From assembly GCF_013375555.1 (NCBI RefSeq), contig NZ_JABXWB010000003.1, positions 62,001 through 126,000 of the forward strand: a DNA stretch of 64,000 bases, given 5' to 3'. Every line of letters begins with the position of its first letter. The stretch's first letter is position 1. The notes under the pieces are model-generated. The model was not told the DNA's origin and ran no database searches. It saw only the letters and a list, made by a program, of their open reading frames with translations. The position numbers were made by a program, and so were the translations under genes. Shown piece after piece: positions 12,135-63,730 of the stretch. The stretch is from Sphingobium sp. EM0848. Its GTDB lineage: Bacteria > Pseudomonadota > Alphaproteobacteria > Sphingomonadales > Sphingomonadaceae.

Positions 12135-13772
12135 GTGTCCGTGCAGGGCGATGCCGGTGCGGGCAAGTCGACGATGCTGTCCGCTGTGGCACGGGTGGCA
12201 GAAGCCGAGGGCCGGACGATCCTGGGCCTCGCCTTCCAGAACAAGATGGTTGCCGACATGAAGGCGGGTGCCGGCATCGAGGCGCAGACCATCGCCTCCT
12301 TCGTCCTTGCCAACCACCGGTTCGTGACCTGGCGGGAGGGCCCTGCCTATGAGGAGGCACGCGCCAGGCTCGCCGGTGCGACCCTGTTGGTCGATGAATC
12401 CTCCATGGTGTCGTCGAACGATATGCTGAAGGTCCACCAGATCGTTGACGCGCTCGGCATCGACAAGTTGGCGCTGGTTGGCGATCGCCAGCAGCTATCG
12501 TCCATCGATGCCGGCAAGGCTTTTGCCATGATCCAGGCGGGAGGCGGCACCATGGCGCGTATGGACCAGAATGTCCGCATCGGTAAACCGGGCCAGCCGC
12601 TCACATCCCAGGAGGAAAAATTGCTGATCGTCGCCAAGCTTGCCAGCCGGGGCAAGTCCAGCGAGGCGATGCGGGTGCTGGGCGACAAGGTCATCGAGTC
12701 CGATGGGCCGGCTTTGGATGCAGCGGATCGTTGGCTTGCCCTGCCGCCGGAGGAGCGCGCGGTAACCGCCGTGTTCGCTTCGGGCCGCGAGGCGCGGGCG
12801 ATCATCAATGAGCGCATCCAGGCGGGACTGGCGAGCGAAGGGACGCTCAAAGGAGAGGCCATTCGTCTCCTCGTCTATGAGCGCGTCAACATGACGCGGG
12901 AGGAATTGCGCTATGCCGCCAATTATCAGCGGGGTCAGACGCTGGAGGTCTGGCGCGGCGGCGCCCGCGATGTTGGTCTTGAGGGCGGACGCTACCAGGT
13001 GACCAAGGTCCATGCCAACGGCCGGATCGACCTGTTGCGGGGCCGGGAGAAGATCCGTTTTTATCCACAGCAATTGTCGCCCACCGAGACGCGCGATCGG
13101 CTCCAGCTCTCGGAGACGAAAATCCTCACCCTGCGCGAGGGCGACATGATCCGCTGGACCGCCAACGACAAGCCGCGGGAATTGCTCAACGCTGCCACCG
13201 CGCGCGTGGCCGGTGTCGATACCAATGGCGTGACCGTCGATCTGGGCGGCGACAAGCGGCTGACGCTGCCGGTCGGCGATGCCATGCTGTCCCGGCTGGA
13301 CTTGGCCTACAGCCTCAACATGCACATGGCGCAGGGTATCACCACCGACAAGGCGATCACGGTCATGTCCAGCCAGGAGCGCAATCTCTCCAACCAGCGG
13401 CTGTTCAATGTCGGCGTCACCCGTGTGCGGGAGGACCTCACCATGATCGTGGACGACAAGGAGAAGCTGGCGCGCCAGCTCGATCACAATCCCGGCAACA
13501 AGACCTCTTCGCTGGAAACCGTGGGGCGGCTCGATATCGATGGGAAAAAGGCGGGCGCGCCGCGCGAACCGTTCAATCCCGGTCCGATCGATGGCGACAC
13601 TTTGCCGAGCGGGGGCGATCCGGCCGGCCTGCCGCCCGATTTGCCGCCGCTGTCTGACAGCAATTCGGCCGCCGCTGGCCAGCCCAGCGATCCGGGCCAG
13701 GCGCCCGATAAGCTGGATCGTGCGGACATCTTGCAGCCCTTGCCAGAGCGCAGCCTGGGTTTGGACTTGTGA
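12135..13772 (+). CDS. traI: MobF relaxase TraI/TrwC, C-terminal helicase part
   Basis: The continuation of the gene broken at 8338. It opens with the helicase Walker A (GDAGAGKST) and Walker B region (ATLLVDESSMV), then VGDRQQLSSIDAGKAF and the C-terminal SF1 helicase motifs (LDLAYSLNMHMAQGIT). A Pro/Asp-rich tail follows. Family context: 5'-3' unwinding of the transferred strand. With the transposon removed, the gene would span 6924-13772 as 1020 residues, close to R388 TrwC (966). The GTG at 12135 is the first possible start after the insertion and has no obvious ribosome site, so expression as a separate protein is uncertain. Reading from 12125 continues the interrupted frame. Confidence 0.88.
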   Translation: MSVQGDAGAGKSTMLSAVARVAEAEGRTILGLAFQNKMVADMKAGAGIEAQTIASFVLANHRFVTWREGPAYEEARARLAGATLLVDESSMVSSNDMLKVHQIVDALGIDKLALVGDRQQLSSIDAGKAFAMIQAGGGTMARMDQNVRIGKPGQPLTSQEEKLLIVAKLASRGKSSEAMRVLGDKVIESDGPALDAADRWLALPPEERAVTAVFASGREARAIINERIQAGLASEGTLKGEAIRLLVYERVNMTREELRYAANYQRGQTLEVWRGGARDVGLEGGRYQVTKVHANGRIDLLRGREKIRFYPQQLSPTETRDRLQLSETKILTLREGDMIRWTANDKPRELLNAATARVAGVDTNGVTVDLGGDKRLTLPVGDAMLSRLDLAYSLNMHMAQGITTDKAITVMSSQERNLSNQRLFNVGVTRVREDLTMIVDDKEKLARQLDHNPGNKTSSLETVGRLDIDGKKAGAPREPFNPGPIDGDTLPSGGDPAGLPPDLPPLSDSNSAAAGQPSDPGQAPDKLDRADILQPLPERSLGLDL

Positions 13773-48257: not shown

Positions 48258-48773
48258 TCAACCTTTGGCAAGACGCGGTTTGCGCACATTCACAGGCACG
48301 GACGCCGACTTGCGCGATTGCGGCTGCCGTTCCTGGAGCCAGTTCTCGGCATAAGTGTCGCGGGTACGAACCCATCCAGTCAGGTCTTTATTGACCTTCT
48401 TCATCGCGCCGAGGATCACTCCCAGCTCAAGATATCCGATATCGTTGCCCAGCTCGTCGTTGAGCTCCCCCATATGGATCATCACGATCGTCATGAGCTT
48501 ATTGTCAGCGCAGCGCACGGCAAACTCCGGTGAACCAAGCTGCACGACTGCCGCGAGCGCATGAGGATCGGAATTGGTTGCTTCCGCGAAACGCGTTATC
48601 CGGTCATTACTGATGCGACCCTGGCCTGACTCCAGATAGTCGTAGGAGCGAGCCGACATGCCCATCGCCTTGGCTACTTCGGCAACGCTCATTCGACGCA
48701 TCTTACGGACCAGGCGCATGGCCTCTCCGATCAGAGCTCCATCGTTCGTTTCCTCAGGCGTCTTGCTGCTCAT
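48258..48773 (-). CDS. XRE-family transcriptional regulator
   Basis: A 171-residue protein with an HTH (MRRMSVAEVAKAMGMSARSYDYLESGQGRIS) in residues about 25-60. A helical C-terminal part with a MIHMGELNDELGNDIG segment follows. The ATG at 48773 is preferred over a GTG at 48836, which only adds an unconserved leader. It is divergent from the GntR-like gene that opens the lasso-peptide region; their 305-base shared gap holds palindromes. It may regulate the lasso locus, the small downstream gene, or itself. Confidence 0.78.
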   Translation of the reverse strand: MSSKTPEETNDGALIGEAMRLVRKMRRMSVAEVAKAMGMSARSYDYLESGQGRISNDRITRFAEATNSDPHALAAVVQLGSPEFAVRCADNKLMTIVMIHMGELNDELGNDIGYLELGVILGAMKKVNKDLTGWVRTRDTYAENWLQERQPQSRKSASVPVNVRKPRLAKG

Positions 48774-49078
48774 CTCCACATCATTCCGTCGGGTTTCCAG
48801 GCAGACCAACGCAGAACCTGGCAGCGTCAGTTTCACAATAAAACCAGAAAAACGTCTCCAGATAAACCTTTGATTTTGTTCGCGCAGAAAATTTGCGCCA
48901 ATTCGGCAGCTTTACCGCGCAATCGCGCAAAATTGCTGCGGCAAATGGGCGCTCTTTTGTGATTGTCGCACCGCAAATGTGGGAAAACACACCCTCCACC
49001 CCAGCTTGGATCAATTTTTACTCGCCAACGCCCAGCACCGCCGCGACCTCCATGATTCGGATCTGGAAGGGACACGGC
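48774..49078. promoter_or_regulatory. Divergent control region between XRE and GntR-like genes
   Basis: This AT-rich gap contains GCGCA/TGCGC inverted half-sites at 48882-48898, CGGCAGC near 48904 and AAAATTGCTGC near 48929. The AAAATTGCTGC word recurs at 60310-60320 in the other large control gap of this region, with CGGCAATT close by. These could be shared operators for a regulator of the lasso locus. Confidence 0.35.
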
Positions 49079-49720
49079 ATGTTCATGGGTACTTCTGACG
49101 ACAGGGCTTATCTGCAAGCGTATAAAGCAATCCGTCTGGCACTGCGCGAACGCCATTGGGCGGAAGGCCAGCATGTTTCCGCCAACCAGTGCGCCAAAAC
49201 CTATCAATTTAGCCCGACACCCGTGCGCGAGGCCATGGCGCGGCTAGCGGGCGAAGGCCTGCTCGAAGAGCGGCGCGGCATGGGCTATTTTGTTCCTCGC
49301 CTCGGTCCGGTGGAATTGAGCGAACTTTACACCGTGGCCCAAAGCACGGCGGCCATGCTGGTGAATGAGCCTGTCATGCTCCCCGCCAAGGTCACAGCCA
49401 ATCGCGCTGAGCAAACAAAATTCGACAGTGGCACGATCCTCGTGACACTGGCCGGACAGACCGCGAACTCGCTCCTTTGCCAGCTTGCGGCCAATCTCGA
49501 TGCGAGACTTGCTCCCGTGCAGGCGGCCGAAGCCCAGATGTTCGACCTGGCCGCCGAGTCTTCTGAATTTGTGGCGCTGCTTGGAGGGGGTGACCGACGG
49601 CTCCTACAACGCTTCACGAACGGCTATTACGGCAGACGGCGCAGGGCCGCCCTCGAGATTGCCCGCCGACATGACGGCAGCGCGAAAACCGGCAACAGAA
49701 TGAAAAGAGAGCGAAAATAA
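49079..49720 (+). CDS. GntR-like regulator next to the lasso-peptide genes
   Basis: A 213-residue protein with a winged-helix GntR N-terminus (AYKAIRLALRERHWAEGQHVSAN, FSPTPVREAMARLAGEGLLEE, GMGYFVPRL). The C-terminal region (residues 90-200) is shorter than a normal FCD ligand domain and is degraded or divergent, with an Arg-rich end. AAGGGA precedes the ATG at 49079. It lies 84 bases before the first precursor gene, in the same direction. GntR-type genes are found beside several sphingomonad lasso loci; a local control role is inferred. Confidence 0.75.
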   Translation: MFMGTSDDRAYLQAYKAIRLALRERHWAEGQHVSANQCAKTYQFSPTPVREAMARLAGEGLLEERRGMGYFVPRLGPVELSELYTVAQSTAAMLVNEPVMLPAKVTANRAEQTKFDSGTILVTLAGQTANSLLCQLAANLDARLAPVQAAEAQMFDLAAESSEFVALLGGGDRRLLQRFTNGYYGRRRRAALEIARRHDGSAKTGNRMKRERK

Positions 49721-49804: not shown

Positions 49805-49921
49805 ATGACCAAAGTGAAGACCGTTCGCCTGCGGCGCCTCGGCAGCGTCTCCCGCGACACCAAGGCGATCGTCCAGACGGGCGAGCAGGAGGAATTCATT
49901 CCCGTCCTGTCTTACGCCTGA
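49805..49921 (+). CDS. Lasso peptide precursor 1
   Basis: A 38-residue precursor, too short for usual gene finders. A strong AAGGAGG lies 6 bases before the ATG. The leader ends in LGSVSRDTK, with the Thr at position -2 that B-type proteases require, giving the predicted core AIVQTGEQEEFIPVLSYA (18 residues). Glu9 is the expected acceptor for a ring to the N-terminal Ala (9-membered). The first residue is Ala, not the usual Gly, as reported for some caulonodins. It is followed by a hairpin, a second precursor, then B and C genes. The mature structure is inferred. Confidence 0.88.
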   Translation: MTKVKTVRLRRLGSVSRDTKAIVQTGEQEEFIPVLSYA

Positions 49922-49929
49922 CCCCACCC

Positions 49930-49957
49930 GGGAGCGGCCTTCAAGGAGGTCGCTCCC
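49930..49957 (+). terminator. Stem-loop between the two precursor genes
   Basis: GGGAGCGGCC (49930-49939) pairs with GGTCGCTCCC (49948-49957) apart from one G-T wobble, over an 8-base loop that contains AAGGAG. There is no U-tract, so it is more an mRNA-stabilising or attenuating hairpin than a full terminator. Such hairpins after the precursor let A be made in excess over B and C. Confidence 0.55.
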
Positions 49958-50074
49958 TCCCCTATCACCTTAAACCCCATCACCACCGCACCGGGAAAAT
50001 CGAGCCCAAAGCATGTGCGACCCCCGCCACATGAGCTGGCCGACCCCGGTGCATCCAACGAACGAGGTTCATTC

Positions 50075-50191
50075 ATGAGCAAGAAGAAATGCGTTGGCCT
50101 GCGGCGCCTTGGTAGCGTCTCGCGCAATACCCATGCGATCACCCAGATGGGCGACAGCGAAGAATTCATGCCGGTTCTCTGCTGGCCCTGA
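50075..50191 (+). CDS. Lasso peptide precursor 2
   Basis: A second 38-residue precursor, equal in length to the first and aligned without gaps. The leader shares LRRLGSVSR and ends in NTH (Thr at -2); the predicted core is AITQMGDSEEFMPVLCWP. Glu9, the EEF, P and VL positions are kept, while the tail ends CWP rather than SYA and a Cys appears at core position 16. GAGG lies about 10 bases before the ATG at 50075, weaker than for precursor 1. It is 153 bases after precursor 1 and 58 before the B gene. It was found by translating between features. Confidence 0.88.
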   Translation: MSKKKCVGLRRLGSVSRNTHAITQMGDSEEFMPVLCWP

Positions 50192-50198
50192 CGCCTAT

Positions 50199-50232
50199 GG
50201 GAGCGGTTCCAGCCGGACACTGCTCCCCTTTT
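50199..50232 (+). terminator. Attenuator-like stem-loop between precursor 2 and B gene
   Basis: GGGAGC (50199-50204) pairs with GCTCCC (50222-50227), followed by CTTTT (50228-50232). The stem matches the one after precursor 1 (same GGGAGCG start), as expected from a precursor-gene duplication. It probably limits read-through into B and C. Confidence 0.55.
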
Positions 50233-50249: not shown

Positions 50250-50882
50250 ATGCCGCTCACTCCCTCCCCGCATGTCCGTGTCGCTGATGTCGACAACGAC
50301 CTCATCCTCCTCGATCTGTCCGACGACAGTTATTTCTGTCTCTCAGGCGAAGAGGCAGATGAAGTCATCCTGGCTCTCCGAGGGGACGAACAGAATCCCG
50401 AGAGTCCGGTGATCGCTGAATTGCTCGATGCGGGTCTCCTGCGCGCAGTCGACGACCTCATCCCGGCCTTCCTCGAGCGGCCGATGCCCGAGAATGGGAT
50501 GCCCCCTCGCGCCAGCACGTTGGCAAGCCTGACGCTCCTCCCCGCCATCCTGGCGGGACTCATCCACTATCAGCTCCACCGCAAGACCCTGCTTCGCCGC
50601 CCCGTCCGCACGGCAACAAGAAAGACGCTGGATGACGCAGAGGTTATCCGCCTGGTCCGGCGCTTCCGGCAATTGCGCATCCTCATGCCGCGCAGCGGCC
50701 GTTGCTTCGTCCAGTCCTGGCTGCTGCTCAGACTCCTGCGCAAACGCGGCGTGGCCGCGGAATGGATTTTCGGCGTGCGGACCTATCCGTTCGAAGCCCA
50801 TTGCTGGGTGGAGTGGCGGGGCCGCGTCCTCAATGATTGGGCCGATCATGTCCGCTGGTACGAACCCATTGCCCAGTTCTGA
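50250..50882 (+). CDS. Lasso peptide B protein: RRE fused to leader peptidase
   Basis: A 210-residue fused B protein, as in Proteobacteria. Residues 1-80 are the PqqD-like leader-binding RRE (DVDNDLILLDLSDDSYFCLSG). Residues 110-210 are the transglutaminase-like cysteine protease with C152 (RSGRCFVQSW), H184 (EAHCWVEW) and D196 (VLNDW) as catalytic triad. It removes the leader after ATP-dependent delivery of the core to the cyclase. The ATG at 50250 has GGGAA upstream. Its last 35 bases overlap the C gene. Confidence 0.92.
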   Translation: MPLTPSPHVRVADVDNDLILLDLSDDSYFCLSGEEADEVILALRGDEQNPESPVIAELLDAGLLRAVDDLIPAFLERPMPENGMPPRASTLASLTLLPAILAGLIHYQLHRKTLLRRPVRTATRKTLDDAEVIRLVRRFRQLRILMPRSGRCFVQSWLLLRLLRKRGVAAEWIFGVRTYPFEAHCWVEWRGRVLNDWADHVRWYEPIAQF

Positions 50883-52638
50883 TTCCTTATCCTTCTGCGC
50901 CTTGATCGCGCCATCCGGTTCATCGGCCGAGGCCCGCGCCCGGACCGTCGCCGGCGCCCTGAGCGCGCGGCTGCCCGGCCTCATCGCCCAGGCGGACCAT
51001 CCCGGCTTCCTCTTGCTTGCTGAGCCTCAGCGTCAGGGTTGGCAACAGCATGGTGCGCGGAAGAATGTTACCCATGTCCTCGGCGAACTGCTGCCGGGCA
51101 CGCTGCCGGCCGCCTCCCTTCCCGCAGCTCTGGAGACATCCACCGATCCCATCGAGGCGATGACCGCCCTTACCCGCCTGTGCTGGGGCCGTTATGTCAC
51201 CTTCGTTCATGACGCGGAGCGCCAGCAAACCAGCTTCCTGCGCGATCCGTCCGGGGCGCTCCGCGCCTATATCTGGAAGGTCGATGGCCTCACCCTGGTC
51301 GTCAGCGGCTTACCGGACGCGCTCCTCGAAAGTGTCGGCGTTCGACCCACCATCGATTGGTCCGCGCTCGGGACGCTCACGGCGCTTCCCGAACGGGTCG
51401 GAAGCCTGAGCGCCCTTACCGACGTGACAATTCCGCTGCCCGGCACGATCTATCATATTGGTAATGGCGGCATCACCACCCAGTCCATCTGGTCGCCGGC
51501 CGCGTTCGCCAGGCAAAGCCCGACGTCCCTCTCCGATCTCCCCCGCACTCTTGCCAATTGCATTTCCGGATGGGCACATGGATGCGACCAGGTCGCCATT
51601 GAACTATCCGGAGGCCTCGATTCCTCGCTCGTGTTGGGTGGGCTCGCCCGGCGGAAGCAGCGGCCGGCGCTCCAGGCGCTCAATCTCATTCCGCGTTCGG
51701 CAGGCGGCGGAGAAAGCCGCTTTGCCCGCGCGGTAACTGATCATTGGCGCGTTCCCCTGGTCGAAGTGGGCATTGAACCCGAAGAGATCGACTATCTCGC
51801 GCACGCTGAGCGATCCCGCCCGGAACAGCCCTTGGTCTATGGCCTGGACCTCACCGCCGATCGAATATCTGCGAACATTGCGGACAGTATTGGCGCGGCG
51901 CGGATATTGAGTGGCCAGGGCGGCGACGCGGTGCTGTTCCAGCCGCGTGGCCCTCATGTCGCTGCCGACCGGCTGCGCGCCAAGGGGCCCGGCCCGACCT
52001 ATTGGCGGTTGCTTGGGTCGGCCGCCGCGTCCACCGACAGGTCGATCTGGTCTGCTCTCTGGCGATCCCTGCGGCCAGCGCCAATCCGCGTCGCGCCCAA
52101 TTTCCAGCGGGCTCTCGCCGGGCCAAGGCTGAGCGCGCAGCTTGAAGCTGGGCCGCCGCTTCATCCCTGGATGGAGGAAGCGCGGCGCCTGCCACCAGGC
52201 AAGCGGCTTCAGATCGCCATGCTCTCCAACTGCCAGATCTTTCACGCCCCAACCCTGACGGCCGCTGGCCATCGGCTCGCCCATCCCATGCTGTCGCAGC
52301 CGGTGGTCGAGCATTGCCTGCGCGTGCCGGTCTGGGAATTGGTGCCCGACGAGCGCGACCGGGGCGGTGCGCGCGATGTGTTGGCTCAATGGCTGCCGCA
52401 GGCCGTGCGTGAGCGTCGCACCAAGGGAGAGGCGACCGGCTTCTATAGCCGTGCTATCGCGCTCCAACTCGATCGGTTGGGACCGCTGCTGCGCGAAGGT
52501 CATCTGGTTCGGCAAGGCATCATCGACCGCGCGGCGCTGGAACCGATGCTGGACGCGGAAGCGCTGCTCTGGCGTGGCGACCATTCGCTGCTGGCAACGC
52601 TTGTGGCAATGGAATTATGGGCGCAGCGATGGGTGTAG
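50848..52638 (+). CDS. Lasso peptide C protein: macrolactam synthetase (Asn-synthetase-like)
   Basis: A 596-residue ATP-dependent cyclase that adenylates the Glu9 side chain and joins it to the N-terminal amine. An N-terminal glutamine-amidotransferase-like half (no catalytic Cys needed) is followed by the PP-loop ELSGGLDSSLV near residue 251, LNLIPRSAGGGESRFARAV, and RILSGQGGDAVLFQ; a C-terminal RTKGEATGFYS segment is kept. The start is taken as the ATG at 50848 (MSAGTNP), overlapping the B gene by 35 bases; an earlier in-frame start would overlap far more. Its 3' end overlaps the opposing isopeptidase gene by 119 bases. Confidence 0.9.
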   Translation: MSAGTNPLPSSDSLSFCALIAPSGSSAEARARTVAGALSARLPGLIAQADHPGFLLLAEPQRQGWQQHGARKNVTHVLGELLPGTLPAASLPAALETSTDPIEAMTALTRLCWGRYVTFVHDAERQQTSFLRDPSGALRAYIWKVDGLTLVVSGLPDALLESVGVRPTIDWSALGTLTALPERVGSLSALTDVTIPLPGTIYHIGNGGITTQSIWSPAAFARQSPTSLSDLPRTLANCISGWAHGCDQVAIELSGGLDSSLVLGGLARRKQRPALQALNLIPRSAGGGESRFARAVTDHWRVPLVEVGIEPEEIDYLAHAERSRPEQPLVYGLDLTADRISANIADSIGAARILSGQGGDAVLFQPRGPHVAADRLRAKGPGPTYWRLLGSAAASTDRSIWSALWRSLRPAPIRVAPNFQRALAGPRLSAQLEAGPPLHPWMEEARRLPPGKRLQIAMLSNCQIFHAPTLTAAGHRLAHPMLSQPVVEHCLRVPVWELVPDERDRGGARDVLAQWLPQAVRERRTKGEATGFYSRAIALQLDRLGPLLREGHLVRQGIIDRAALEPMLDAEALLWRGDHSLLATLVAMELWAQRWV

Positions 52639-55048
52639 CAATCCGGTCAACCGATAGCCGATCGGTGAGCCAGGCAGATATGCGCTGCCACATGTCGCGG
52701 ATATTGCCGGGGCTGCGCACGCTATGCGCCTCGCCCCAATAGCGCAGCAAGGTGACGTCCCGCCCGGCGCGGTGCAGCAGCGCAAACATGCGCTCGGCAT
52801 TGATCGCAAGCACCGCGTCGATGTCGCCATGGATCAGCAGCACGGGATCGCGGATGCCCTCGGCCTGATAATAGGGGCTGCTCCGCCAATAGCGTTCGGG
52901 CGCCGCCTGCGGCCCCGTCAGCATGTGCCCCTGCCCGCCCTCGGCCCATCCGAAACCCGACGTCAGTGGAAATCCTTCCTTCATGGCCACGCGGTCGGGC
53001 GGCGGCAGCGCGCCATGCTGGATCGCAAGGTCCGCGGGCGCGGCGCTGGCAATATAGGCGCGGAAGCGGTGGCTTTGGGATGCGATCTTGAGGCTCGTGT
53101 AGCCGCCGAAACTGTGGCCATAGACCGCCATGCGCTTGCTATCGACCAGGCCCGTGGCGAGGACCCGGTCGACCGCCTGCTCGACCTGCGCGGTCAAGCC
53201 GGCGCCGCGGTCCATGCCATCGTGCGCGTCAACGAGGCTGGGCATGAGCACCGCATAGCCCATGCTGGTAAGGAGGAGCGGATTGACCGGTGAGGCAACA
53301 ACGTCCGGTGCGAGCACGGGAGGACGAGTGTTGGTGAAGGTCGTCCCCGGATAGGGGATCACGACCAGAGGGTGCGGCGTGGGGCTATGTCCCGTTGGCA
53401 GGATCAGCCAATCGGTCAGCCCGGAGGCAGGATTTATCAGGGGACGCATAGTCGGCAGGTCAATGTCGGCCAGATGGCCATTGATCCGGTCGATCTCGCG
53501 AATGCCGACCGGCCCTGAGACCATGAGCCGGCCGACACCCCTTATATCGCGCGCGACCCAAAGCGCGATGCCGTGCCGCCCGTTGCCTGCGAGCAGACGG
53601 GTAATGGGAGAGTCTCCTGTCTCGATTGCCCGAGACGGCGTGCCGGGCCAATCCAGCTGCGCTACCCTCCCCTGCAAGAGGGCAACGGGGGTGTTGTCGT
53701 TGATCGGCGTGATCGAGCGATGGTTAGCACGAATGCCGACGTCGAAACTCTCGCTGGCCGGGCGAGTTATCAGTAGCGGTCCGCCCGCTATGATCCGCTC
53801 GACGTTGCCCGCCCGATCGATCGACCAAAGCCCATCCGGGCAGGCGAGGAGCAGTCGGGTGCTCCCCGCCTGCAGCGCCGGCGGCTGGCAGGGCAGCCGG
53901 GCCAGCGCCTTATCGATAGTTTGTGCCGCGCGCGGAGCCGTCCAGCGATCTTGCCCCGCCCCGCGTCGGCCATAGAGAAGCGGAACTTCACCCCACCACC
54001 CCGCGCGCGCCAGACGGACGCCGCTGTCATCGGGCGGCAGATACGGCGTGACCTGCTCGAACGCAGCGCTGCTTTGCCCGCTCCCTGTATTGAAGACCCG
54101 AAGCGCGCCCATCGCCCAATCGTCGCCGGGCTTGCGCGCGAAGAATAAGAGCTTGCTCCCTTTGGGCGCCCATTCGAGGAACCCGGGCTGGATGTCGCAG
54201 TTCGAACAGGCCTGATGCTCCAGTCCACCATTAATCGGCAAGACCGACAGCCGATATTGCCGGTTCTGGTCACTCGACCGCACGGGCACATTCTGGGGGA
54301 TGACCGTTTCCGGCCCCTCGCGCAGCAGGGCAAGCCAGGCCCGATCCGCCGAGATCGCAACATCGACGATCGGCCCAGTCGCAATCTGCCGCGTGTCCTT
54401 CGTATCAGCGTTCACCAGCAGGAGTTTGCGTTGCGGGTCCGGCGCCGCCTCGCCCTTTCCGCCGATGACCGAAACACCCGGCTGCGCCCCAAGCGCCGTT
54501 CGCGCCCAGAGCGGCGCGACCTCCGCCTGGAAGCGGCTGCCGGCAGCGAGCGGCCAGGGCAGAGCTGGGCTGTCCGCTTCGACCAGCAGCAGGTGACGAT
54601 CGTCCAGCCAGTCGGGCGCCGGATGCAGAACCGAGGTCGCGGGATGCTGCGGAAGCCACTTCACTTCCCGCGCCGCCATGTCGACGATCCCCAATGACAG
54701 GGTTTCATCCTTCAGCCGGAACACCGCGAGGCGCTTACCCGAGGGCGAGAGGCTGGCGATCCAGTAGCCCGCGCCATCATCCTGTGGGAACAGCGGCTCG
54801 AGACGGCGGCCATGCTGAAGATCGAGGCGCATCACGACGCCCAAGCCACGGCGGTTGAAGCCATCATAGCGGTAGCTCGTGCCGCCGTCATAGCGGCGGT
54901 AGCGATCAATCACCGCCCACCGGGCATCAGGATCGACTAGCGCCTGCCCGTAGCTTTCAACGCGCAGCATATCGTCCACGCCATAAGGGCGTGCCTCGGC
55001 GATGCCGGCCGCGGCCAGGCATAGCGCCGCCAGCCATGGGAAACGCAT
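52520..55048 (-). CDS. Lasso peptide isopeptidase (AtxE-like, S9 family)
   Basis: An 842-residue exported serine hydrolase: signal peptide (MRFPWLAALCLAAAGIAEA), a beta-propeller-like region with many repeated strands (residues 30-560), and an alpha/beta-hydrolase domain with the nucleophile in YGHSFGGYTS (near 645), Asp in HGDIDAVL (near 745) and His in WGEAHSV (near 773). AtxE-type isopeptidases open the macrolactam of their cognate lasso peptide and are encoded next to it. It is convergent with the C gene. The last 40 residues, Pro/Ala-rich, are coded antisense to the cyclase C-terminus and are probably unstructured. Confidence 0.9.
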   Translation of the reverse strand: MRFPWLAALCLAAAGIAEARPYGVDDMLRVESYGQALVDPDARWAVIDRYRRYDGGTSYRYDGFNRRGLGVVMRLDLQHGRRLEPLFPQDDGAGYWIASLSPSGKRLAVFRLKDETLSLGIVDMAAREVKWLPQHPATSVLHPAPDWLDDRHLLLVEADSPALPWPLAAGSRFQAEVAPLWARTALGAQPGVSVIGGKGEAAPDPQRKLLLVNADTKDTRQIATGPIVDVAISADRAWLALLREGPETVIPQNVPVRSSDQNRQYRLSVLPINGGLEHQACSNCDIQPGFLEWAPKGSKLLFFARKPGDDWAMGALRVFNTGSGQSSAAFEQVTPYLPPDDSGVRLARAGWWGEVPLLYGRRGAGQDRWTAPRAAQTIDKALARLPCQPPALQAGSTRLLLACPDGLWSIDRAGNVERIIAGGPLLITRPASESFDVGIRANHRSITPINDNTPVALLQGRVAQLDWPGTPSRAIETGDSPITRLLAGNGRHGIALWVARDIRGVGRLMVSGPVGIREIDRINGHLADIDLPTMRPLINPASGLTDWLILPTGHSPTPHPLVVIPYPGTTFTNTRPPVLAPDVVASPVNPLLLTSMGYAVLMPSLVDAHDGMDRGAGLTAQVEQAVDRVLATGLVDSKRMAVYGHSFGGYTSLKIASQSHRFRAYIASAAPADLAIQHGALPPPDRVAMKEGFPLTSGFGWAEGGQGHMLTGPQAAPERYWRSSPYYQAEGIRDPVLLIHGDIDAVLAINAERMFALLHRAGRDVTLLRYWGEAHSVRSPGNIRDMWQRISAWLTDRLSVDRIATPIAAPIIPLPQALPAANGRHARAALPRPASVPAPRGR

Positions 55049-55102: not shown

Positions 55103-58100
55103 CTACCATCGCTTTTTTATCTGCATCGACAGGAAGCGGCCAAGCACGTCGGCGTTGGCCGGATCATAGGCAAAGCCAAGATTGCGATCGACAAAGGGCG
55201 GGTCGCGGTCGAAGAGATTCTGCGCGGTGAGCGCGAGGCTGAGGCCCTTGCGCCAACCCTCTGTCGCTCGCGGCTCGTAGCGCAATTGCAGGTCGATCCC
55301 CGTCCATGAGGAGATTGGCCGCGCCGGCACGCTGATATTGTCGGTATAGGACCCGACATGGTTGACCGAGAGCGTGGCGCCGACATCGCCGCGCGCCCAG
55401 TCCAGGGTGCCTCGCGCACGGAAGTCGACCGGATTGCCGAGCGTGCCCACCCGTTCGATCATGGGCGAGGCAGGCGTCAATTGATCCTTATAGTCGATGA
55501 GGATCGTGCTGTTGATCGACAGGTTCAGCCGGTTCGAACCAAGGGTGAGACTTTGGCGCACCAGCAGATCGACGCCCCGCACATCGACCCGCGCGGAATT
55601 GACATAACGCCCATCGATGATCGCACGGAAGGATTCAGGCGCGAATGTCGTCGGCACGCTCGACCCCGGCACGGCCAGCAGCGCCCGGACGCGCGCCAGA
55701 TCGGCGGCATTATGTGCAGGATCAATTAGCGTCACATAGGGCGCGTAGATCGGATTGGTGAGCGCTTGCAGGATATTCTCGGTGACCGGCTGGCCAATCC
55801 GGTTGGAAAAGCGGGTCTGGAAATAATTGGCCTCAAAGCCAAAGCCTGGCGCAGCCTTGGGTTGAACCTTGAAGCCCAGGGACAGCGACTTCGCCTTTTC
55901 CGGTTCCAGATCGCGATTACCGCCCCGAAGCGAAAGGACGGGCAGATTGCCGCCGCCAGTCGTCGGGAGCTGGGTATAGGAGACGCGGAAGGGATCGAAG
56001 ATTTCCGGAAGAGCGGGAGCGCGGAAGGAGGTGCCCCAGCTTCCCCGCAATTGCAGGCCGTCGGCCGGCTCCCACACCAGCCCGATCTTGGGATTGGTGG
56101 TCGAGCCGAAATCGGAATAGCGCTCATGGCGAACCGCCAGCAACAGGTCGAGGCGCTGAACGCCGGGGCGCGCATTCTCTGGACCGACCAGCGGCACGGC
56201 CAGTTCGCCGAAGACCGCCACGATCGTCCGGTTGGCCTTGGCCGCGACCGGCGCAGGCGGGGTCACGCCAGAGGCAAAGGTCTGGATCGAGCGGCTGAAA
56301 TCCTCCTCCCGTGCCTGCGTCCCGAAGGCGAGCTTCACCGGGCCGCCTGGCAGATCGAAGATCGTGCCGTCAGCGATCAAACTCCCGTTCAGCAATTCGC
56401 TGCGGTAGTGCTGGCGAATGAAGCCGCTGCCGATGAAGTCCGTGATGACGGAGCTATTGCTGCTGCCGTCGCCAAAGGGATTGAAATAGCCATCCCGTGC
56501 CGCACTGAAAGGCGTTGCCGGATTATCAGCGGTGAGGCCCAGCGCTTCGTTGAGCGCGGTGCTGTTGAGCAGATGGTCGCTCAACTGGCGGTCGACCTGC
56601 CGGGCATGAGACAGATAGGCGTCGACTTGCCAGTCACCGCCCAGCTCCGCTCGGACCCCGGCGGTCACCGAGTGGCTGCGCACCCGTCCGCTGCTGACGA
56701 TCGGGCCAATGTCCCGACCGAAATCATAAGCAATCGCAACCGACGAACCGCCAGTGGGCGAGACAAACCACGGATTGGAGCGGGTCACGCTCATGATCGT
56801 GAGCGAAGGCTGCGATTTCGCATCGAACTTGCGATCCGAATAGCGGCCCTCGACATAGAAGGTCAGGCCATCGGTCAGCTCCTGCTCACCACTCACGAAC
56901 AGGCTGTGTCGGTCCTGCTTCGAGAGCAGATCGACATGGGCCCGCGGGCTGGAGAGGCTTGCTCCGGGGATGAAGTCGCCGGGAGCAAGGTCCGTCCCGT
57001 CCTGCCCATCGGGAATCGCATAGGCCGGGACATAGGTGCGGGTGACCGGGTCCAGCACGACGATCGTGCCCGGCACCGAGAAATATTGGCGATAATCATG
57101 CCCGCCCAGCGGCCGCAGGTCCGCCGAGCGCGTATATTTGCGCGCGGAGCCGGGCAAGCGGCCGCGATGCTGATATTCATAAGCAGCGAGGATATGGCCG
57201 GTCGACCAGCGCGCGCCCACGACCTGGCCTGCAATAATGTCCTCGCTGCCGCCACGCGTCACCGTTCCCAGCCGCATCCGGCTTTCCGCTCCTTCGAAGT
57301 CCTTGCGGAGCAGGATGTTCACCACGCCGCCGATCGCATCCGAACCGTAGAGCGCGGAGGCGCCGTCAGCCAGCACCTCGACCCGCTCGACCGCGACCGC
57401 CGGGATGCTTGAGAGATCAGTGAAGTCCCCTTTGCCGCCCGCGCCCGCCGCGCGGCGGCCGTTGACGAGCGTCAGTGTGGCGTCGGAGCCGAGGCCGCGC
57501 AGATTGATGCTGGAGCCCAGGCCCGGATTGATACTCACCCGGTCCGAGCCGGTGAGACTGGTGTCCTCATTGGCCATGCCCCCGAAATTCTGCGGTAGCA
57601 GCGCCAAAGCCTCAGCGACCGTGCCGGCCCCCGATCGCGCGATGTCTGTCGCCGTCATGTTGATCACCGGAGAGGATGGCGGGGCTGCCGAGCGGATATT
57701 GGTGCCGGTGACGGTGACGGTGACCTCCGACGCCGCCATGTCCGGTGCCCGGACCGGCTTTGGTCGCGGTGCGACCAACTGCGGCGCGCGCTGGGTGCGA
57801 GCCGGGGTTTGCGTCGAGGCACGGGGTGGCGGCGAAGCCTGCGGCGAGAGTATATAGACATTGCGCCCCTGATGGCTGACCGCAATGGGATAGCCGCCAA
57901 TCAGCTTGCGCAGTGCCTTGTCAGCATCCATCGATCCCATGACCGCATGCGCGCGGCGCCCTTCGACCAACTGGCTGCGATAAAGCAGCTGCCGTCCCGT
58001 CAGCGCCATATAACGCTGCAGAGCCTGGTCGAGCGATCCGGCCGCGATGTCGAAATTTTGCCGGGCTTCCTGCGCGCGCACGATAGGCGCAGCGACGGGA

Positions 58101-58204
58101 ACGGTTGCCAGCGCCCAGGCCGCGCAGGTCAGCAGTCCACTGCGGCAGAATCCGACCGCGCTACGCTTCCCTCGCTTATCTCGATGGACGATCTTGACTT
58201 TCAT
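55103..58204 (-). CDS. TonB-dependent receptor with STN signalling domain
   Basis: A 1033-residue outer-membrane receptor. Signal peptide; STN domain (residues about 50-125, FDIAAGSLDQALQRYMALTGR); a Pro-rich linker; plug domain (NLRGLGSDATLTLVNGRR, DGASALYGSDAIGGVVNILL); and a 22-strand-type barrel with many TonB-receptor motifs (WEPADGLQLRGSWGTSFRAPA) to a final aromatic-terminated RFLSMQIKKRW. The STN domain marks a FecA-type transducer that signals to the FecR next to it. GGGGAA precedes the ATG at 58204. In sphingomonad lasso loci such receptors are thought to import the lasso peptide or its cargo; the ligand here is not shown. Confidence 0.93.
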   Translation of the reverse strand: MKVKIVHRDKRGKRSAVGFCRSGLLTCAAWALATVPVAAPIVRAQEARQNFDIAAGSLDQALQRYMALTGRQLLYRSQLVEGRRAHAVMGSMDADKALRKLIGGYPIAVSHQGRNVYILSPQASPPPRASTQTPARTQRAPQLVAPRPKPVRAPDMAASEVTVTVTGTNIRSAAPPSSPVINMTATDIARSGAGTVAEALALLPQNFGGMANEDTSLTGSDRVSINPGLGSSINLRGLGSDATLTLVNGRRAAGAGGKGDFTDLSSIPAVAVERVEVLADGASALYGSDAIGGVVNILLRKDFEGAESRMRLGTVTRGGSEDIIAGQVVGARWSTGHILAAYEYQHRGRLPGSARKYTRSADLRPLGGHDYRQYFSVPGTIVVLDPVTRTYVPAYAIPDGQDGTDLAPGDFIPGASLSSPRAHVDLLSKQDRHSLFVSGEQELTDGLTFYVEGRYSDRKFDAKSQPSLTIMSVTRSNPWFVSPTGGSSVAIAYDFGRDIGPIVSSGRVRSHSVTAGVRAELGGDWQVDAYLSHARQVDRQLSDHLLNSTALNEALGLTADNPATPFSAARDGYFNPFGDGSSNSSVITDFIGSGFIRQHYRSELLNGSLIADGTIFDLPGGPVKLAFGTQAREEDFSRSIQTFASGVTPPAPVAAKANRTIVAVFGELAVPLVGPENARPGVQRLDLLLAVRHERYSDFGSTTNPKIGLVWEPADGLQLRGSWGTSFRAPALPEIFDPFRVSYTQLPTTGGGNLPVLSLRGGNRDLEPEKAKSLSLGFKVQPKAAPGFGFEANYFQTRFSNRIGQPVTENILQALTNPIYAPYVTLIDPAHNAADLARVRALLAVPGSSVPTTFAPESFRAIIDGRYVNSARVDVRGVDLLVRQSLTLGSNRLNLSINSTILIDYKDQLTPASPMIERVGTLGNPVDFRARGTLDWARGDVGATLSVNHVGSYTDNISVPARPISSWTGIDLQLRYEPRATEGWRKGLSLALTAQNLFDRDPPFVDRNLGFAYDPANADVLGRFLSMQIKKRW

Positions 58205-58323
58205 GGTTCCCCTTCCCCTGCTGGTCCGGCGGACTGAGGGGCGGGCTCGCACCTTCCCCTGTCGCCTATCCCTGCAACGCAAGGGATTGGGGGTAACCCT
58301 GGCAGACATGTTAAATTTTTATG

Positions 58324-59307
58324 TCAGGAGCGCGCGGGGTCAAGCACCAGACGGATCGCACCATTGGGTTCAGGCTGGGCGCGCAGGGGATAAAGCGCGA
58401 TCACCGCACGGATGAAGGCATCGCGATCGCCCACCGCAAATCCACCATTCACATGCTCTTCAGCAAATTCCGGCGCTTCCAGGATGATCGGCGCCTCACA
58501 ATAGCGATTGACCTCGTCCACAGCGTCGGCGAGCGCACGGCCTTCAAAGAGAAGCCGACCGCTTGTCCAGGATGTGACCGCCTGGATGTTCCCGCGCTCC
58601 TTGGGACCAAGCCCGCCCTGTCCCGCCATCATCATGTCACCGGGCAGCAAATGGTCGCTGCATGCGTCCGTGGAGCAATCGGTGGAATCCACCCGCACCT
58701 TGCCTTCAATCAGCAGAATCCTGGCGTCGAACTGTTGGCGATCGATTTCGAAGCGTGTGCCGAGCGCGCGCACCGTTGCCGCGCCCGCATCGACATCGAA
58801 CGGGCGGCTCTTGTCATGCGCGACATCGAACAGCGCGCGGCCACTGATCAGGGTCAGCCGACGGTGGCCATCAGTAAAACGGACGTCGACGGCGCTCGCG
58901 CTATCGAGATGAAGGGTCGACCCATCTTCCAGCCGCACAAGCCGCTGCTCACCGATGCCGGTTTCATAATGGACTGAAAGTGGCCAGAGGAAGAAGGCGC
59001 CCAGCGCGAGTGCCCCGGCAATGACCCCGCCTGCCAACCACAATAGCGGCCGCCTGCTACGTGTACGCGAGGCCGATTGCTCCAGGGTTTCCCCGACAAG
59101 TGTGGCGATATCGGGATCTTTTCCCAGCGCCTGCGCTGAGCGCCAATGCTGGTCGATCCGCTCATACGCGGCCGCATGGCGCGGGTCTTTCTTCCAGGCG
59201 AAGAACTCGTGGATCTCGCTCGTGTCCGCTACGGGCGAATTGAAGCGCGCAACCCAATGGGCCGCCTCCGCCTCTATCTTTTCTTCCTCTTCCCTGCCCA
59301 TCGTCAT
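58324..59307 (-). CDS. fecR: FecR-type anti-sigma/sigma regulator
   Basis: A 327-residue single-span protein. The cytoplasmic part (residues 1-80) has EAAHWVARFNSP and FFAWKKDPRHAAAYERID, the DUF4880-type anti-sigma domain. A membrane helix (LLWLAGGVIAGALALGAFFLW) follows, then the periplasmic FecR domain (GEQRLVRLEDGSTLHLDSAS, GRALFDVAHDKSRPFDV, VRALGTRFEI, IEGKVRV) with a C-terminal STN-like part. It receives the signal from the receptor and controls FecI. It starts 8 bases after fecI. Confidence 0.93.
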   Translation of the reverse strand: MTMGREEEEKIEAEAAHWVARFNSPVADTSEIHEFFAWKKDPRHAAAYERIDQHWRSAQALGKDPDIATLVGETLEQSASRTRSRRPLLWLAGGVIAGALALGAFFLWPLSVHYETGIGEQRLVRLEDGSTLHLDSASAVDVRFTDGHRRLTLISGRALFDVAHDKSRPFDVDAGAATVRALGTRFEIDRQQFDARILLIEGKVRVDSTDCSTDACSDHLLPGDMMMAGQGGLGPKERGNIQAVTSWTSGRLLFEGRALADAVDEVNRYCEAPIILEAPEFAEEHVNGGFAVGDRDAFIRAVIALYPLRAQPEPNGAIRLVLDPARS

Positions 59308-59315
59308 CCTCGCCC

Positions 59316-59843
59316 TCAGTCAGAAAGCCATTGCGCACAATGTGCCAGTGCCTTGCACATCCGCCATTCCACGGTCTTGACCGAGATCCCGAGCCGTTTT
59401 GCAATATCCGCATTCGTCATGGGCGTGAACCGCGACAAAAGAAAGACGCTGCGCAGGTCCTGCGGCAAGGAGAGGATAGCCTGTTTGAGGTCCAGCAGAT
59501 ATTCTTGGTCGGCGCAGACCGGAATGTCCCAGGACGGATCGGGATCATTGGCCGCCACCGGCGCCGGGCGGATCTTGTTCCGTCGCATCTGGTCGCGGGC
59601 GAGATTGACGCCGATGCGCAAAAGCAGCGCGCGGGGATGGAGCTGCGTCGCTTCCTCGCTGTAGCGTGCGACCCGCATATAGGTGTCCTGCACCAGATCC
59701 TCCGCTTCCAGGCCCATGCCCGCAAACCGGCGTTGCAGTCTTCCCAGCAGCCAACCGGCATGACTGCGGTAAAGCCGCTCGATCATCCCATCTTGCCGCC
59801 TGTCCCCTGACAGCCACGGCCCTTTTCCTCGTTCGCCGGTCAT
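59316..59843 (-). CDS. fecI: FecI-like ECF sigma factor
   Basis: A 175-residue sigma-70 family ECF protein: region 2 (YRSHAGWLLGRLQRRFAGMG, AEDLVQDTYMRVA) and region 4 (LPQDLRSVFLLSRFTPMTN, IAKRLGISVKTVEWRMCKAL). It directs RNA polymerase to the receptor/lasso promoters when released by FecR. The start at 59843 has AGGAAAGG upstream; a later Met (59786) would shorten region 2. Confidence 0.92.
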   Translation of the reverse strand: MTGERGKGPWLSGDRRQDGMIERLYRSHAGWLLGRLQRRFAGMGLEAEDLVQDTYMRVARYSEEATQLHPRALLLRIGVNLARDQMRRNKIRPAPVAANDPDPSWDIPVCADQEYLLDLKQAILSLPQDLRSVFLLSRFTPMTNADIAKRLGISVKTVEWRMCKALAHCAQWLSD

Positions 59844-60540
59844 GACCCGCGCCTTTCCTCGACATATGGCGGGCGCGCCGTCCCAAAGGGACGGCGAAGG
59901 AAAGGCTCCATGCCGGCGCGTCACGCAAAGGCGCGCGCTAGTGATCAGACACGTCAGTCGTATCGACGGAGCGGCGCCCGATCTCGGTACAGGGGTTTCC
60001 ACGCCCCGCCACCGGCCTCCCGATGGCAGGCAGGAAAATCCCGCATCAGGACTCCGGCTGCAAGTGTTTGCAAAAAGGGGTCGGGTGTTGGAAATCCCTG
60101 TTGAGACCCGCTATTTGAACATCGCGCCGCTGCCGACCGACCAGGCCAAAAGCCCGCCGATCCCCCGGCCCATGGGACGCGCGTCCTGTTTCACGGCACC
60201 CGACATTGTCTCCATAGCGCAGCGGTCGCTGCTGTCTAACTTCGGTTCCCCAAAGGCGAAAAAAATATCCGCTTTCCGGTGGTTACGAAGAAAATTGCGC
60301 GTTTTACGAAAAATTGCTGCCGAGATTCGGCAATTTCTTTCGCAAATCGCGCAGCGAATCTTCGGACGCGAGAAGAGCGCCGCATTTTACGGTTGAGCAT
60401 GATTCGCGAAGAGAACGGGGGCGAATGCTCGTGTTGGCGGGGCTGGCGACGCGCAGAGCCATGCCAATCCCCGTCCCGGCCTCATCGCGAGGTGCATATT
60501 TTTCTTGGCTTTTCCGCGCCGAGGAACGACTCTGGGCGCT
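59844..60540. promoter_or_regulatory. Control gap between fecI and the nucleotidyltransferase-HEPN gene
   Basis: No gene is convincing here. Its centre (60255-60360) is AT-rich and contains GAAAATTGCGCG, AAAAATTGCTGC and an imperfect palindrome AATTGCTGCCGA-GA-TTCGGCAATT. It should hold the outward promoters of fecI (minus) and the HEPN gene (plus). The AAAATTGCTGC word also occurs in the XRE/GntR gap at 48929. In-frame stretches across it have no start signals. Confidence 0.4.
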
Positions 60541-61493: not shown

Positions 61494-63527
61494 TCACCAA
61501 ATCCTGACGCGGTCTTCCGGCGGCAGGTACAGCCTGTCCGTCGGCTTCGCCTGAAACGCTGCGTACCATGCATCGAAGTTGCGCACCGTGGCGGCGCGAT
61601 ATTGCGCGGGAGAATGCGGGTCCGTGACGAGCCGCTGACGAGCAATCGCTTCCCGATATTTCATCCGCCAGACCTGCGCCCAGCCCAGGAAAAAACGCTG
61701 ATCGCCCGTCGTGCCATTGATGACCGGGGCCGGCTTTCCGCCAAGCGAGGTGTGATAGGCGTCGAGCGCGACGGCCAAGCCAGCGAGATCGCCGATATTC
61801 TCGCCAAGAGTGAGGGCGCCTTTGACATGGCTGCCTGGGAAAGGCTCATAGTCATCGTACTGCCGGACCAACTGCTGGCTCAATTTCCTGAAAGCCGCGA
61901 CGTCCGCTTCGGTCCACCATTGGGCTAGCTTGCCGGATTCGTCATATTTGGCGCCCTGATCATCGAAATGGTGACTGAGCTCATGACCGATGACCGCGCC
62001 AATGCCGCCATAGTTGATCGCCGGGTCGGCATGGGGATCGAAAAAAGGCGGTTGCAGTATCGCCGCGGGGAACACGATCTCGACCTTGCTGAAGCTGGCA
62101 TAGGCGTTGATCTCCATGGGGGTCATGCCCCATTCCCACCGATAGATCGGCTTGCCGAGCTTTCCGACATTATAGTCGAATGCGAACTGATTGGCCCGGA
62201 CTGCATTGCCGAACAGATCGTCGGGCTTGATCAATAGGCCGGTATAATCGCGCCATCTGTCAGGGTAGCCGATTTTCGCGGTGAACGCGGTGAGCTTTGC
62301 TTGCGCCCGGAGCTTGGCCGGCTCGCTCATCCACTTCAGACGATCAATGCGCCGGCCCATGGCGGCGATCACATTCTTCACCAACTGGTCCATCGCGGAC
62401 TTGGTCTGCGGCGGGAAATATTGGGCGACATAGGTCTTGCCAACCTCCTCGCCAAGCGCACCCTTCATAAAATCGAAGCCCCGTTTCCAGCGCTCTGGCC
62501 GGGTCGGAGCACCGGTCAGCACCGTCCCGTAAAATGCGAAATCCTCCGCGCCGATTCGGTCGGGCAGAACATCAGCAAGGGCGTGAAGGCTGCGCACCAA
62601 CAGTGCATCCTTGAGGACATCGAGCTGCGCATTGCCGATCACCGCTGCCTCGCCAACAATTACGCTAGGCTGGGCAACGATGAGGGCCGTGGCGTCGATC
62701 TTGTTCGCCGCGAAGAAGGCGCGAAAGTTGAAACCCGGTGCGGTCTTTATCAGTTCGACCAGGGTCATCTTATTGTAGATTTTCTCGACGTCCCGGCTGT
62801 CGACGCGCGACCAATGGGTTCTGGCGATCTCGGTTTCCAATCCCAGCAGAGCCTCTGCCCTGCCCCTCGCGTGGGTCTGCCCGGCCAGCGTCAGCATTTT
62901 CTCCAGGTACCTGACATAGGCCGTCCTGATCGCAGCCATCTTCTCGGACGGGTCCAGATAATAGTCACGATCCGGGAGCCCCAGACCGCCCTGGCTTAAT
63001 TTCAGGATATAGCGATCGGGGTCCTTGTCATCCTGGCTGATGTAGATGCGGAAAGGTCCGGCAACTCCGGCGCGGCTTGCCTGAGCGGCGACCCTAGCAT
63101 AGCTCTCCCTGTTTTTGATCGCCGCGATTTCCATGAGCCAGGGCTGGATCGGCGTCATCCCCTTTTCTTCGACGGCAGAGCTGGCCATGAAACTTGCGTA
63201 CGCAGCGCCGATCTTGGTTGATGAATCTTTCGCGGCGGCTTCCAGAATGGCGCGGGTTCGCTCCCGCGACAGATCTTCCAGTATCGCGAACGCCCCGTAG
63301 CTGGATCGATCGGCAGGAACGTCTGTGGTCGCCGCCCAATGTCCGTTCGCATAGAGGTAGAAATCATCTCCCGGCCGTGCTTGTGGGTCCATGCCCTCGC
63401 CGTCGAAGCCGAACGCACCATAGGCCGGTCTGTTTGAAACTCCCTGTGCCTGCATCGGCCCAGGCGCCGCTGCCGAAAGTGCAAATGGAAGCGCGACCAT
63501 CGTCACGCGACGTTTGTTCAGTACCAT
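61494..63527 (-). CDS. M13-family zinc metallopeptidase (neprilysin/PepO-like)
   Basis: A 677-residue exported peptidase: signal peptide, then RPGDDFYLYANGHW typical of M13, GLGLPDRDYYL, NAYASFSKVEIVFPAAILQPP, zinc site GHELSHHFDDQG (residues about 516-527) and GENIGDLAG (near 577). Terminal RFLL/RIW-like end is as in family. These peptidases cleave short peptides; near a lasso-peptide locus it could trim linearised peptide after isopeptidase action, but that is speculation. The ATG at 63527 has GGGGAA upstream. Confidence 0.92.
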   Translation of the reverse strand: MVLNKRRVTMVALPFALSAAAPGPMQAQGVSNRPAYGAFGFDGEGMDPQARPGDDFYLYANGHWAATTDVPADRSSYGAFAILEDLSRERTRAILEAAAKDSSTKIGAAYASFMASSAVEEKGMTPIQPWLMEIAAIKNRESYARVAAQASRAGVAGPFRIYISQDDKDPDRYILKLSQGGLGLPDRDYYLDPSEKMAAIRTAYVRYLEKMLTLAGQTHARGRAEALLGLETEIARTHWSRVDSRDVEKIYNKMTLVELIKTAPGFNFRAFFAANKIDATALIVAQPSVIVGEAAVIGNAQLDVLKDALLVRSLHALADVLPDRIGAEDFAFYGTVLTGAPTRPERWKRGFDFMKGALGEEVGKTYVAQYFPPQTKSAMDQLVKNVIAAMGRRIDRLKWMSEPAKLRAQAKLTAFTAKIGYPDRWRDYTGLLIKPDDLFGNAVRANQFAFDYNVGKLGKPIYRWEWGMTPMEINAYASFSKVEIVFPAAILQPPFFDPHADPAINYGGIGAVIGHELSHHFDDQGAKYDESGKLAQWWTEADVAAFRKLSQQLVRQYDDYEPFPGSHVKGALTLGENIGDLAGLAVALDAYHTSLGGKPAPVINGTTGDQRFFLGWAQVWRMKYREAIARQRLVTDPHSPAQYRAATVRNFDAWYAAFQAKPTDRLYLPPEDRVRIW

Positions 63528-63730
63528 ACGAGAATTCCCCTCTGCGAATGTGAGAGGACATTCCACGCGTTATATCGTGATGGCTCTCAGGGGCGAGCCG
63601 CCAGTCAAAAATTAGCCCGCTCGATCACACAACGCGGCATGCCTCAGCGATATGAACGAATTTATGGCACTCCCACCCTGGCGACCGCCGGCAAGCCATC
63701 AGATGATTGGCGCTTGAATGGTTCGAACGG

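Follow-up and report, generated by a model that had tools for sequence, protein, structure and literature searches.

A predicted two-precursor lasso peptide cluster of Sphingobium sp. EM0848 and the Glu9 cluster lineage to which it belongs

Gene content of the locus

The window, a stretch of 64,000 nucleotides from the soil bacterium Sphingobium sp. EM0848, contains the genes and RNA hairpins listed in Table 1. Two short genes lie between a GntR gene and a B gene. The initial annotation had read them as two 38-residue lasso precursors, new and in duplicate; their positions proved exact, and domain models identified the neighbouring GntR, B and C genes as it had named them (PF00392, NF033537 and PF00733, respectively). 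The pair is real, as the search of the genus described below showed.

Table 1. Features of the cluster, with coordinates in the window
Feature	Position	Strand	Remarks
XRE/HTH regulator	48258..48836	-	PF13560/PF01381; divergent from GntR
GntR-family regulator (start codon uncertain)	49052..49720	+	PF00392, 45.6 bits
Lasso precursor 1	49805..49921	+	ATG 49805, stop 49921; 38 codons
Hairpin after precursor 1 stop	49930..49957	+	-23.6 kcal/mol, z -3.8
Lasso precursor 2	50075..50191	+	ATG 50075, stop 50191; 38 codons
Hairpin after precursor 2 stop	50199..50227	+	GGAGCGG stem as after precursor 1
B protein	50250..50882	+	PF13471; NF033537 lasso_biosyn_B2, 73.1 bits, cut-off 33
C protein, asparagine-synthetase-like lasso cyclase (TTG start inferred)	50869..52638	+	PF00733, 87.7 bits, cut-off 21
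S9 peptidase in isopeptidase position, 842 aa, not AtxE2-type	52520..55048	-	PF00326; NF033523, 49.8 bits, cut-off 400
TonB-dependent receptor with STN domain	55103..58309	-	PF00593, PF07715, PF07660 (STN below gathering score)
FecR-type anti-sigma factor	58324..59307	-	PF04773
ECF sigma factor, FecI-type (ORF; true start probably internal)	59316..60002	-	PF04542, PF08281

The lasso reading is supported by the enzymes. A structure model and fold matches divide the B protein into an RRE (about residues 1-68) and a transglutaminase-like leader peptidase, whose C152, H184 and D196 are invariant in 54 sequences. The C protein has the cyclase PP-loop SGGLDSS, invariant in four aligned orthologues including its own, and scores far below the cut-offs of the specific macrolactam and lasso cyclase models. 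The GntR protein is 72-97% identical in four Sphingobium relatives. The locus has the parts by which a class II lasso cluster is recognised: precursors with a leader, Thr at -2 and an acidic residue at core positions 7-9, a B protein with an RRE and a B2 cysteine protease, and an asparagine-synthetase-like cyclase.

The 3' ends of the C and S9 peptidase genes overlap antisense by 119 bases (window 52520-52638), and overlaps of roughly 110 bases are found in four Sphingobium relatives as judged by tblastn ends. Beyond the ECF sigma gene lies an M13 metallopeptidase gene (window 61494-63566, minus strand). A partial homologue (83% over 218 residues) stands at the end of locus L036, and none was found in the other stretches searched, most of which end shortly after the sigma gene.

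The two precursor genes and their predicted cores

Precursor 1 translates as the 20-residue leader MTKVKTVRLRRLGSVSRDTK followed by the predicted core AIVQTGEQEEFIPVLSYA, and precursor 2 as the 20-residue leader MSKKKCVGLRRLGSVSRNTH followed by the predicted core AITQMGDSEEFMPVLCWP. The translations bear out the gapless alignment, the LRRLGSVSR leaders with Thr at -2, the Ala1 and Glu9 of both cores, and the SYA and CWP tails described in the initial annotation. The two proteins share 24 of 38 residues (63%) and the genes 85 of 117 bases, stop codons counted. Both cores are 18 residues long and start with Ala-Ile. Each gene is preceded by a purine-rich, ribosome-binding-like stretch.

A motif pattern designed after the sequences had been seen matched exactly precursors 1 and 2 in the window and nothing in 200 order-1 Markov surrogates. 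Stronger evidence against chance is orthology: a precursor profile found both genes in 5 of 94 Sphingobium genomes (our own, Sphingobium sp. 15-1, S. chungbukense DJ77, S. estronivorans AXB and Sphingobium sp. Sx8-8) and, at E 0.001, neither gene in the other 89. dN was lower than dS in all 20 pairwise comparisons over 37 codons (10 pairs for each of the two genes), the values being rough because the genes are short. For the cores, with 18 codons each and equally rough values, dN and dS were 0.04 and 0.79 for precursor 1 against S. chungbukense, and 0.02 and 0.38 for precursor 2 against S. estronivorans. A single comparison of leaders alone, between S. chungbukense and S. estronivorans, went the opposite way, and the leader of precursor 2 is more variable than that of precursor 1. 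The Cys that the initial annotation had pointed out in the second core is unchanged in all five Sphingobium loci. These substitution patterns indicate that the cores of both precursors are under purifying selection. Chance open reading frames were rejected as an explanation on dN < dS and on the surrogate result.

In all five loci a GC-rich hairpin with a GGAGCGG stem follows each precursor stop. When refolded with more flank, the hairpin at 50199..50227 gave a longer helix with z -2.6.

Sphingobium sp. Sx8-8 carries a HipA-like gene (PF07804, PF13657) and an HTH gene between the two precursors (L035:9906-12533), and both precursors are still open and the hairpins retained despite this insert. 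Its precursor 2 leader is closer to its own precursor 1 leader than most precursor 2 leaders are (L035:9789-9905 versus 12534-12650), and its precursor 2 core remains of type 2; gene conversion of the leader is possible.

The calculated [M+H]+ and [M+2H]2+ values, for the linear core minus water, are 1976.0011 and 988.5042 for precursor 1 and 2035.8962 and 1018.4517 for precursor 2. If the second product dimerised through its Cys, the disulfide-linked form would have a mass near 4067.76 Da. Neither precursor matched any NCBIfam model. The core and leader strings were not found in the literature searched, which also held no paper combining a lasso peptide with Sphingobium chungbukense.

Precursor, peptidase and regulator in related loci

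Precursor searches of 94 genus genomes and 397 family genomes, and then of the loci from their matches, gave 25 precursors in 19 loci adjoining B genes, our two included. All 25 have Thr at -2 and Glu9. Core position 1 is Ala in 22, Ser in one and Gly in two; an acidic residue occurs at position 7 in 10, at position 8 in three and at position 10 in 14. In a class-wide sample of 385 genomes, matches beside lasso genes came from our own genome only. A 26th precursor, from a second cluster of Sphingobium sp. 15-1, also has Ala1, Glu9 and Thr-2, which makes 26 precursors from 20 loci altogether. Glu9 is the sole acidic position kept in 26/26 and is therefore the likely ring residue, with the reservation that the profile which detected the five weakest precursors already contained Glu9 and that the pattern for the 26th required an acidic residue at core 8 or 9, so that Glu9 is not fully independent in these. 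Against Glu7 as the ring residue, Gln occupies position 7 in the cores, for example AIVTAGQQEEFLPILSYN, of four relatives that belong to another genus, probably Blastomonas.

The count leaves out L106, L108 and L109, where about 3 kb was examined and contained no B gene, L076-L079, which lack B, C, peptidase, receptor and GntR, and L063, a short contig; L102 was retained after its frame had been read. The pattern gave no precursor upstream of B in L012, L026, L029 and L037, the last of which has a Gly1 precursor downstream of C, and in L033 no B gene was found. L070, probably from Allosphingosinicella vermicomposti, carries two different Ala1/Glu9 precursors, one on each side of the GntR gene and not in tandem.

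The XRE gene accompanies the Glu9 precursors. A homologue was present in 18 of 18 relatives of the lineage, opposite to B and 1.1-1.6 kb upstream of it, or 3.9 kb from B where the HipBA-like insert splits the precursors. None was found in 22 Gly1 loci, of which 8 were examined over at least 5 kb upstream and 14 over only 1.2-2.3 kb. The gene is single copy in our own genome by genome-wide search. At the level of whole genomes it was present in 7/7 with Glu9 clusters and in 0/13 Sphingobium genomes with a cluster typed as Gly1, any further lasso B genes in these 13 being untyped. Sphingobium sp. 15-1 has a second XRE copy, 34% identical, and beside it a diverged cluster with B, C, a long S9 peptidase (34% identical) and a TonB receptor. 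This cluster, the source of the 26th precursor (leader ending in SLVKLGKARHQTR, core ASMNEIAPELVGDKTQRFGG), was located by XRE alone; the ORF pattern with which the place was then read required core position 1 to be Ala, Gly or Ser and position 8 or 9 to be acidic. The XRE gene is a new handle for finding such clusters, and one new cluster was obtained with it.

The S9 peptidase is the third mark. Its fold is an S9 propeller plus hydrolase, and S646, D744 and H775, invariant in 16 sequences, form the putative catalytic triad. With the AtxE2 isopeptidase model NF033523 (cut-off 400), seven lineage peptidases fail at 41-71 bits (the six relatives at 40.8-70.5), whereas peptidases of Gly1 clusters pass: L037 (782 bits) and L038 (802), both in our own genome, and L080 of Caulobacter (556). 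The protein has 842 residues against 669-725 in three AtxE2-type proteins scanned, and its profile-profile match with the AtxE2 type is confined to the hydrolase domain at 22% identity. In fold and profile comparisons the enzyme comes closest to the S9 carboxypeptidase 8wt1, to further S9 peptidases and to DPP IV rather than to AtxE2. The two solved isopeptidases, AtxE2 and SpI-IsoP (PDB 5txc, 5jrl), share the propeller and hydrolase fold, with Ser-Asp-His here assigned from conservation; the peptidase is no closer to them than to other S9 peptidases, and Foldseek ranks them 44 and 24, respectively. They are not among the best 50 matches of the VIA list, which excludes nothing.

Two local peptidase-type profiles were applied to 20 further loci. 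The long S9 type was found in 5/5 held-out Glu9 loci, one copy being a fragment cut off at the contig end. Among the 14 further Gly1 loci that have a peptidase, 13 showed the AtxE2 type, the exception being L120 (Gly1/Glu8); L116 showed no peptidase within the stretch examined. L132 and L133, both Gly1, have the AtxE2 type. Taken together, all 20 Glu9 loci contain the long S9 peptidase, and 16 of them have its gene downstream of B and C, encoded on the opposite strand. The four Blastomonas-like loci (L065-L068) carry it beyond, that is upstream of, the XRE gene, on the B strand and not convergent with C.

Several loci showed other arrangements. In L066 the TonB receptor is also upstream of the XRE gene on the B strand. 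L120, with the long S9 type at L120:4118-6805, is a possible intermediate, as is L121, where a Gly1/Glu8 precursor is accompanied by the AtxE2 type and also by a 412-residue ORF resembling the long type (L121:3657-4892). The Gly1 locus L131, on a plasmid of Asticcacaulis excentricus M6, has a 656-residue S9 peptidase that scored 13 and 54 bits with the local profiles and is perhaps a third type.

Annotation models separate the same groups. The benenodin model NF033522 (cut-off 33 bits) gave no hit for nine lineage precursors, our two included, and was passed by three Caulobacter Gly1 precursors at 41-56 bits. With the leader model NF033521 (cut-off 19), three of seven further lineage precursors gave sub-threshold scores of 12.6-14.7 bits. 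Judged by these scores, the Glu9 lineage falls outside the NCBIfam models tested for precursors and isopeptidases. Since the nine scanned precursors fall below every NCBIfam cut-off, such peptides are probably under-counted, and the cluster type is only partly recognised by standard annotation.

A first tree of B proteins from 44 loci separated Ala/Ser1 from Gly1 once (95/68). When five loci were added, two Gly1 precursors fell in the Glu9 group, and Ala1 as a clean lineage trait was rejected. In this larger tree the first residue needs three changes, and for this reason we define the lineage by Glu9, peptidase and XRE rather than by Ala1; the Glu9 group forms one side of a weakly supported branch (76/52). 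The marks held in loci outside their definition, with the S9 type in the five held-out loci and with the XRE probe leading to the further Ala1/Glu9 cluster. The precursors belong to a lineage of Sphingomonadaceae lasso clusters in which the Glu9 precursor, the long S9 type and XRE co-occur, and this lineage, marked by precursor type, peptidase type and regulator, is more interesting than the precursor pair itself.

Proposed pathway and comparison with known systems

We consider it very probable that the locus is a two-precursor class II lasso peptide cluster with the following processing and uptake scheme. The RRE of B would bind the LRRLGSVSR leader, and its Cys-His-Asp domain would cut after residue 20, two residues past the conserved Thr. 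C, with ATP, would activate the Glu9 side chain and join it to the Ala1 amine, so that a nine-residue ring closes round a tail that Tyr17 or Trp17 holds in place. The TonB-dependent receptor would bind the products, probably outside the cytoplasm, and import them, and it would signal through FecR and the ECF sigma factor. The S9 peptidase may then open the ring or degrade the imported peptides, and XRE and GntR may regulate the cluster. We infer the cleavage and ring positions from conservation and the Thr-2 rule; threading and function are likewise predicted. Directly established are the genes with their domain and fold assignments, together with their orthology, the selection acting on them and their co-occurrence.

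Other explanations bear on the precursors. They might be decayed or unused copies beside B and C, and the more variable leader of precursor 2 would fit this. It is extremely improbable, as both are open in all five orthologous loci, core dN is below dS wherever the cores differ, and a conserved hairpin follows both. The same precursors might instead be closed on Glu7, giving a seven-residue ring, or on Glu10. Both positions are acidic in all ten Sphingobium precursors, and seven-residue rings have a precedent in huascopeptin, an entry of PMC12427821. We rejected these residues because positions 7 and 10 vary across the lineage: the four relatives of the other genus have Gln at position 7, other precursors have Val, Leu, Gly, Ile, Phe or Pro at position 10, and Glu is constant at position 9 only. 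Ring closure at Glu7 or Glu10 is thus very unlikely, and closure at Glu9 is likely.

The peptidase and the cluster as a whole also allow other readings. In a lasso-like cluster the S9 enzyme could be an exo- or oligopeptidase for imported linear peptide or for leader clean-up rather than a ring opener. Its closest matches, its failure with the AtxE2 model and its non-convergent position in the four Blastomonas-like loci agree with this. Against it stand its presence in every Glu9 locus, in 16 at the site of the AtxE2-type isopeptidase, and the AtxE2 type that takes its place in 18 of the 20 Gly1 loci assigned a type by model or profile (L120 and L131 excepted); moreover SpI-IsoP, a proven isopeptidase, is itself distant in sequence from an AtxE2-type protein. 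On balance we regard this role as rather unlikely. It is more doubtful still that the locus is an ordinary benenodin/AtxE2-type cluster with unremarkable sequence drift. The order A-B-C, peptidase, TonB receptor, FecR and ECF sigma is the usual one in the account of PMC9266682, the 76/52 support of the Glu9 branch is modest, L120 has the lineage S9 type, and two Glu9 precursors begin with Gly. Nevertheless, the lineage peptidases fail NF033523 while both other clusters of our own genome pass, NF033522 splits lineage from Caulobacter Gly1 precursors, and XRE is confined to the Glu9 relatives in the loci (most Gly1 loci having short flanks) and genomes compared. These data favor a distinct lineage.

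We tentatively suggest that sphingomonads have a parallel second lasso lineage, with Glu9 and mostly Ala1, a second kind of S9 isopeptidase that is AtxE2-like only in its hydrolase domain, and dedicated XRE control, and that five Sphingobium species keep a fixed two-peptide system with an invariant Cys. A lineage with nearly the same genes and a different precursor, S9 type and extra regulator would be a natural second test of what isopeptidase clusters are for. Should rings be opened by both peptidase types, that step would be a selected one and not an accident of one enzyme family.

The caulonodins IV-VII of Caulobacter sp. K31, for which Zimmermann et al. 2014 is reportedly the primary paper, are the nearest precedent. 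Ala1 with Glu9 is not new, as the table of PMC12427821 gives both residues for caulonodin VI. Within that table caulonodins IV-VII have Ser or Ala at position 1, Glu9 and 17-19 residues, a combination of Ala/Ser1 and Glu9 that both precursors here share. Caulonodins IV (SFDVGTIKEGLVSQYYFA) and V (SIGDSGLRESMSSQTYWP) are 18-residue Ser1/Glu9 peptides ending in FA and WP, which resemble SYA and CWP here, and the caulonodin clusters have two precursors each according to PMC7549694. Beyond residue 1, Glu9, length, tail ends and paired precursors, no common sequence is evident.

The arrangement of GntR, TonB receptor, sigma/anti-sigma and isopeptidase is standard for isopeptidase lasso clusters in the account of PMC9266682, where their purpose is called an open question. 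PMC11006600 reports that a transposon in a lasso B gene of Sphingomonas BPH was accompanied by the loss of phenanthrene utilisation; the precursor printed in that paper assigns the cluster to the Gly1 type. The benenodin/sphingonodin-type clusters with AtxE2, two of which occur elsewhere in our own genome, share with the present cluster the gene order, the B and C families, the TonB receptor, FecR and ECF sigma. They have Gly1, mostly Asp8, LIDLG..ETK leaders, mostly acidic tail ends and an AtxE2-type peptidase, and XRE was not found in them, whereas the present cluster has Ala1, Glu9, the leader L.RLGS..R.T, the other S9 type and XRE.
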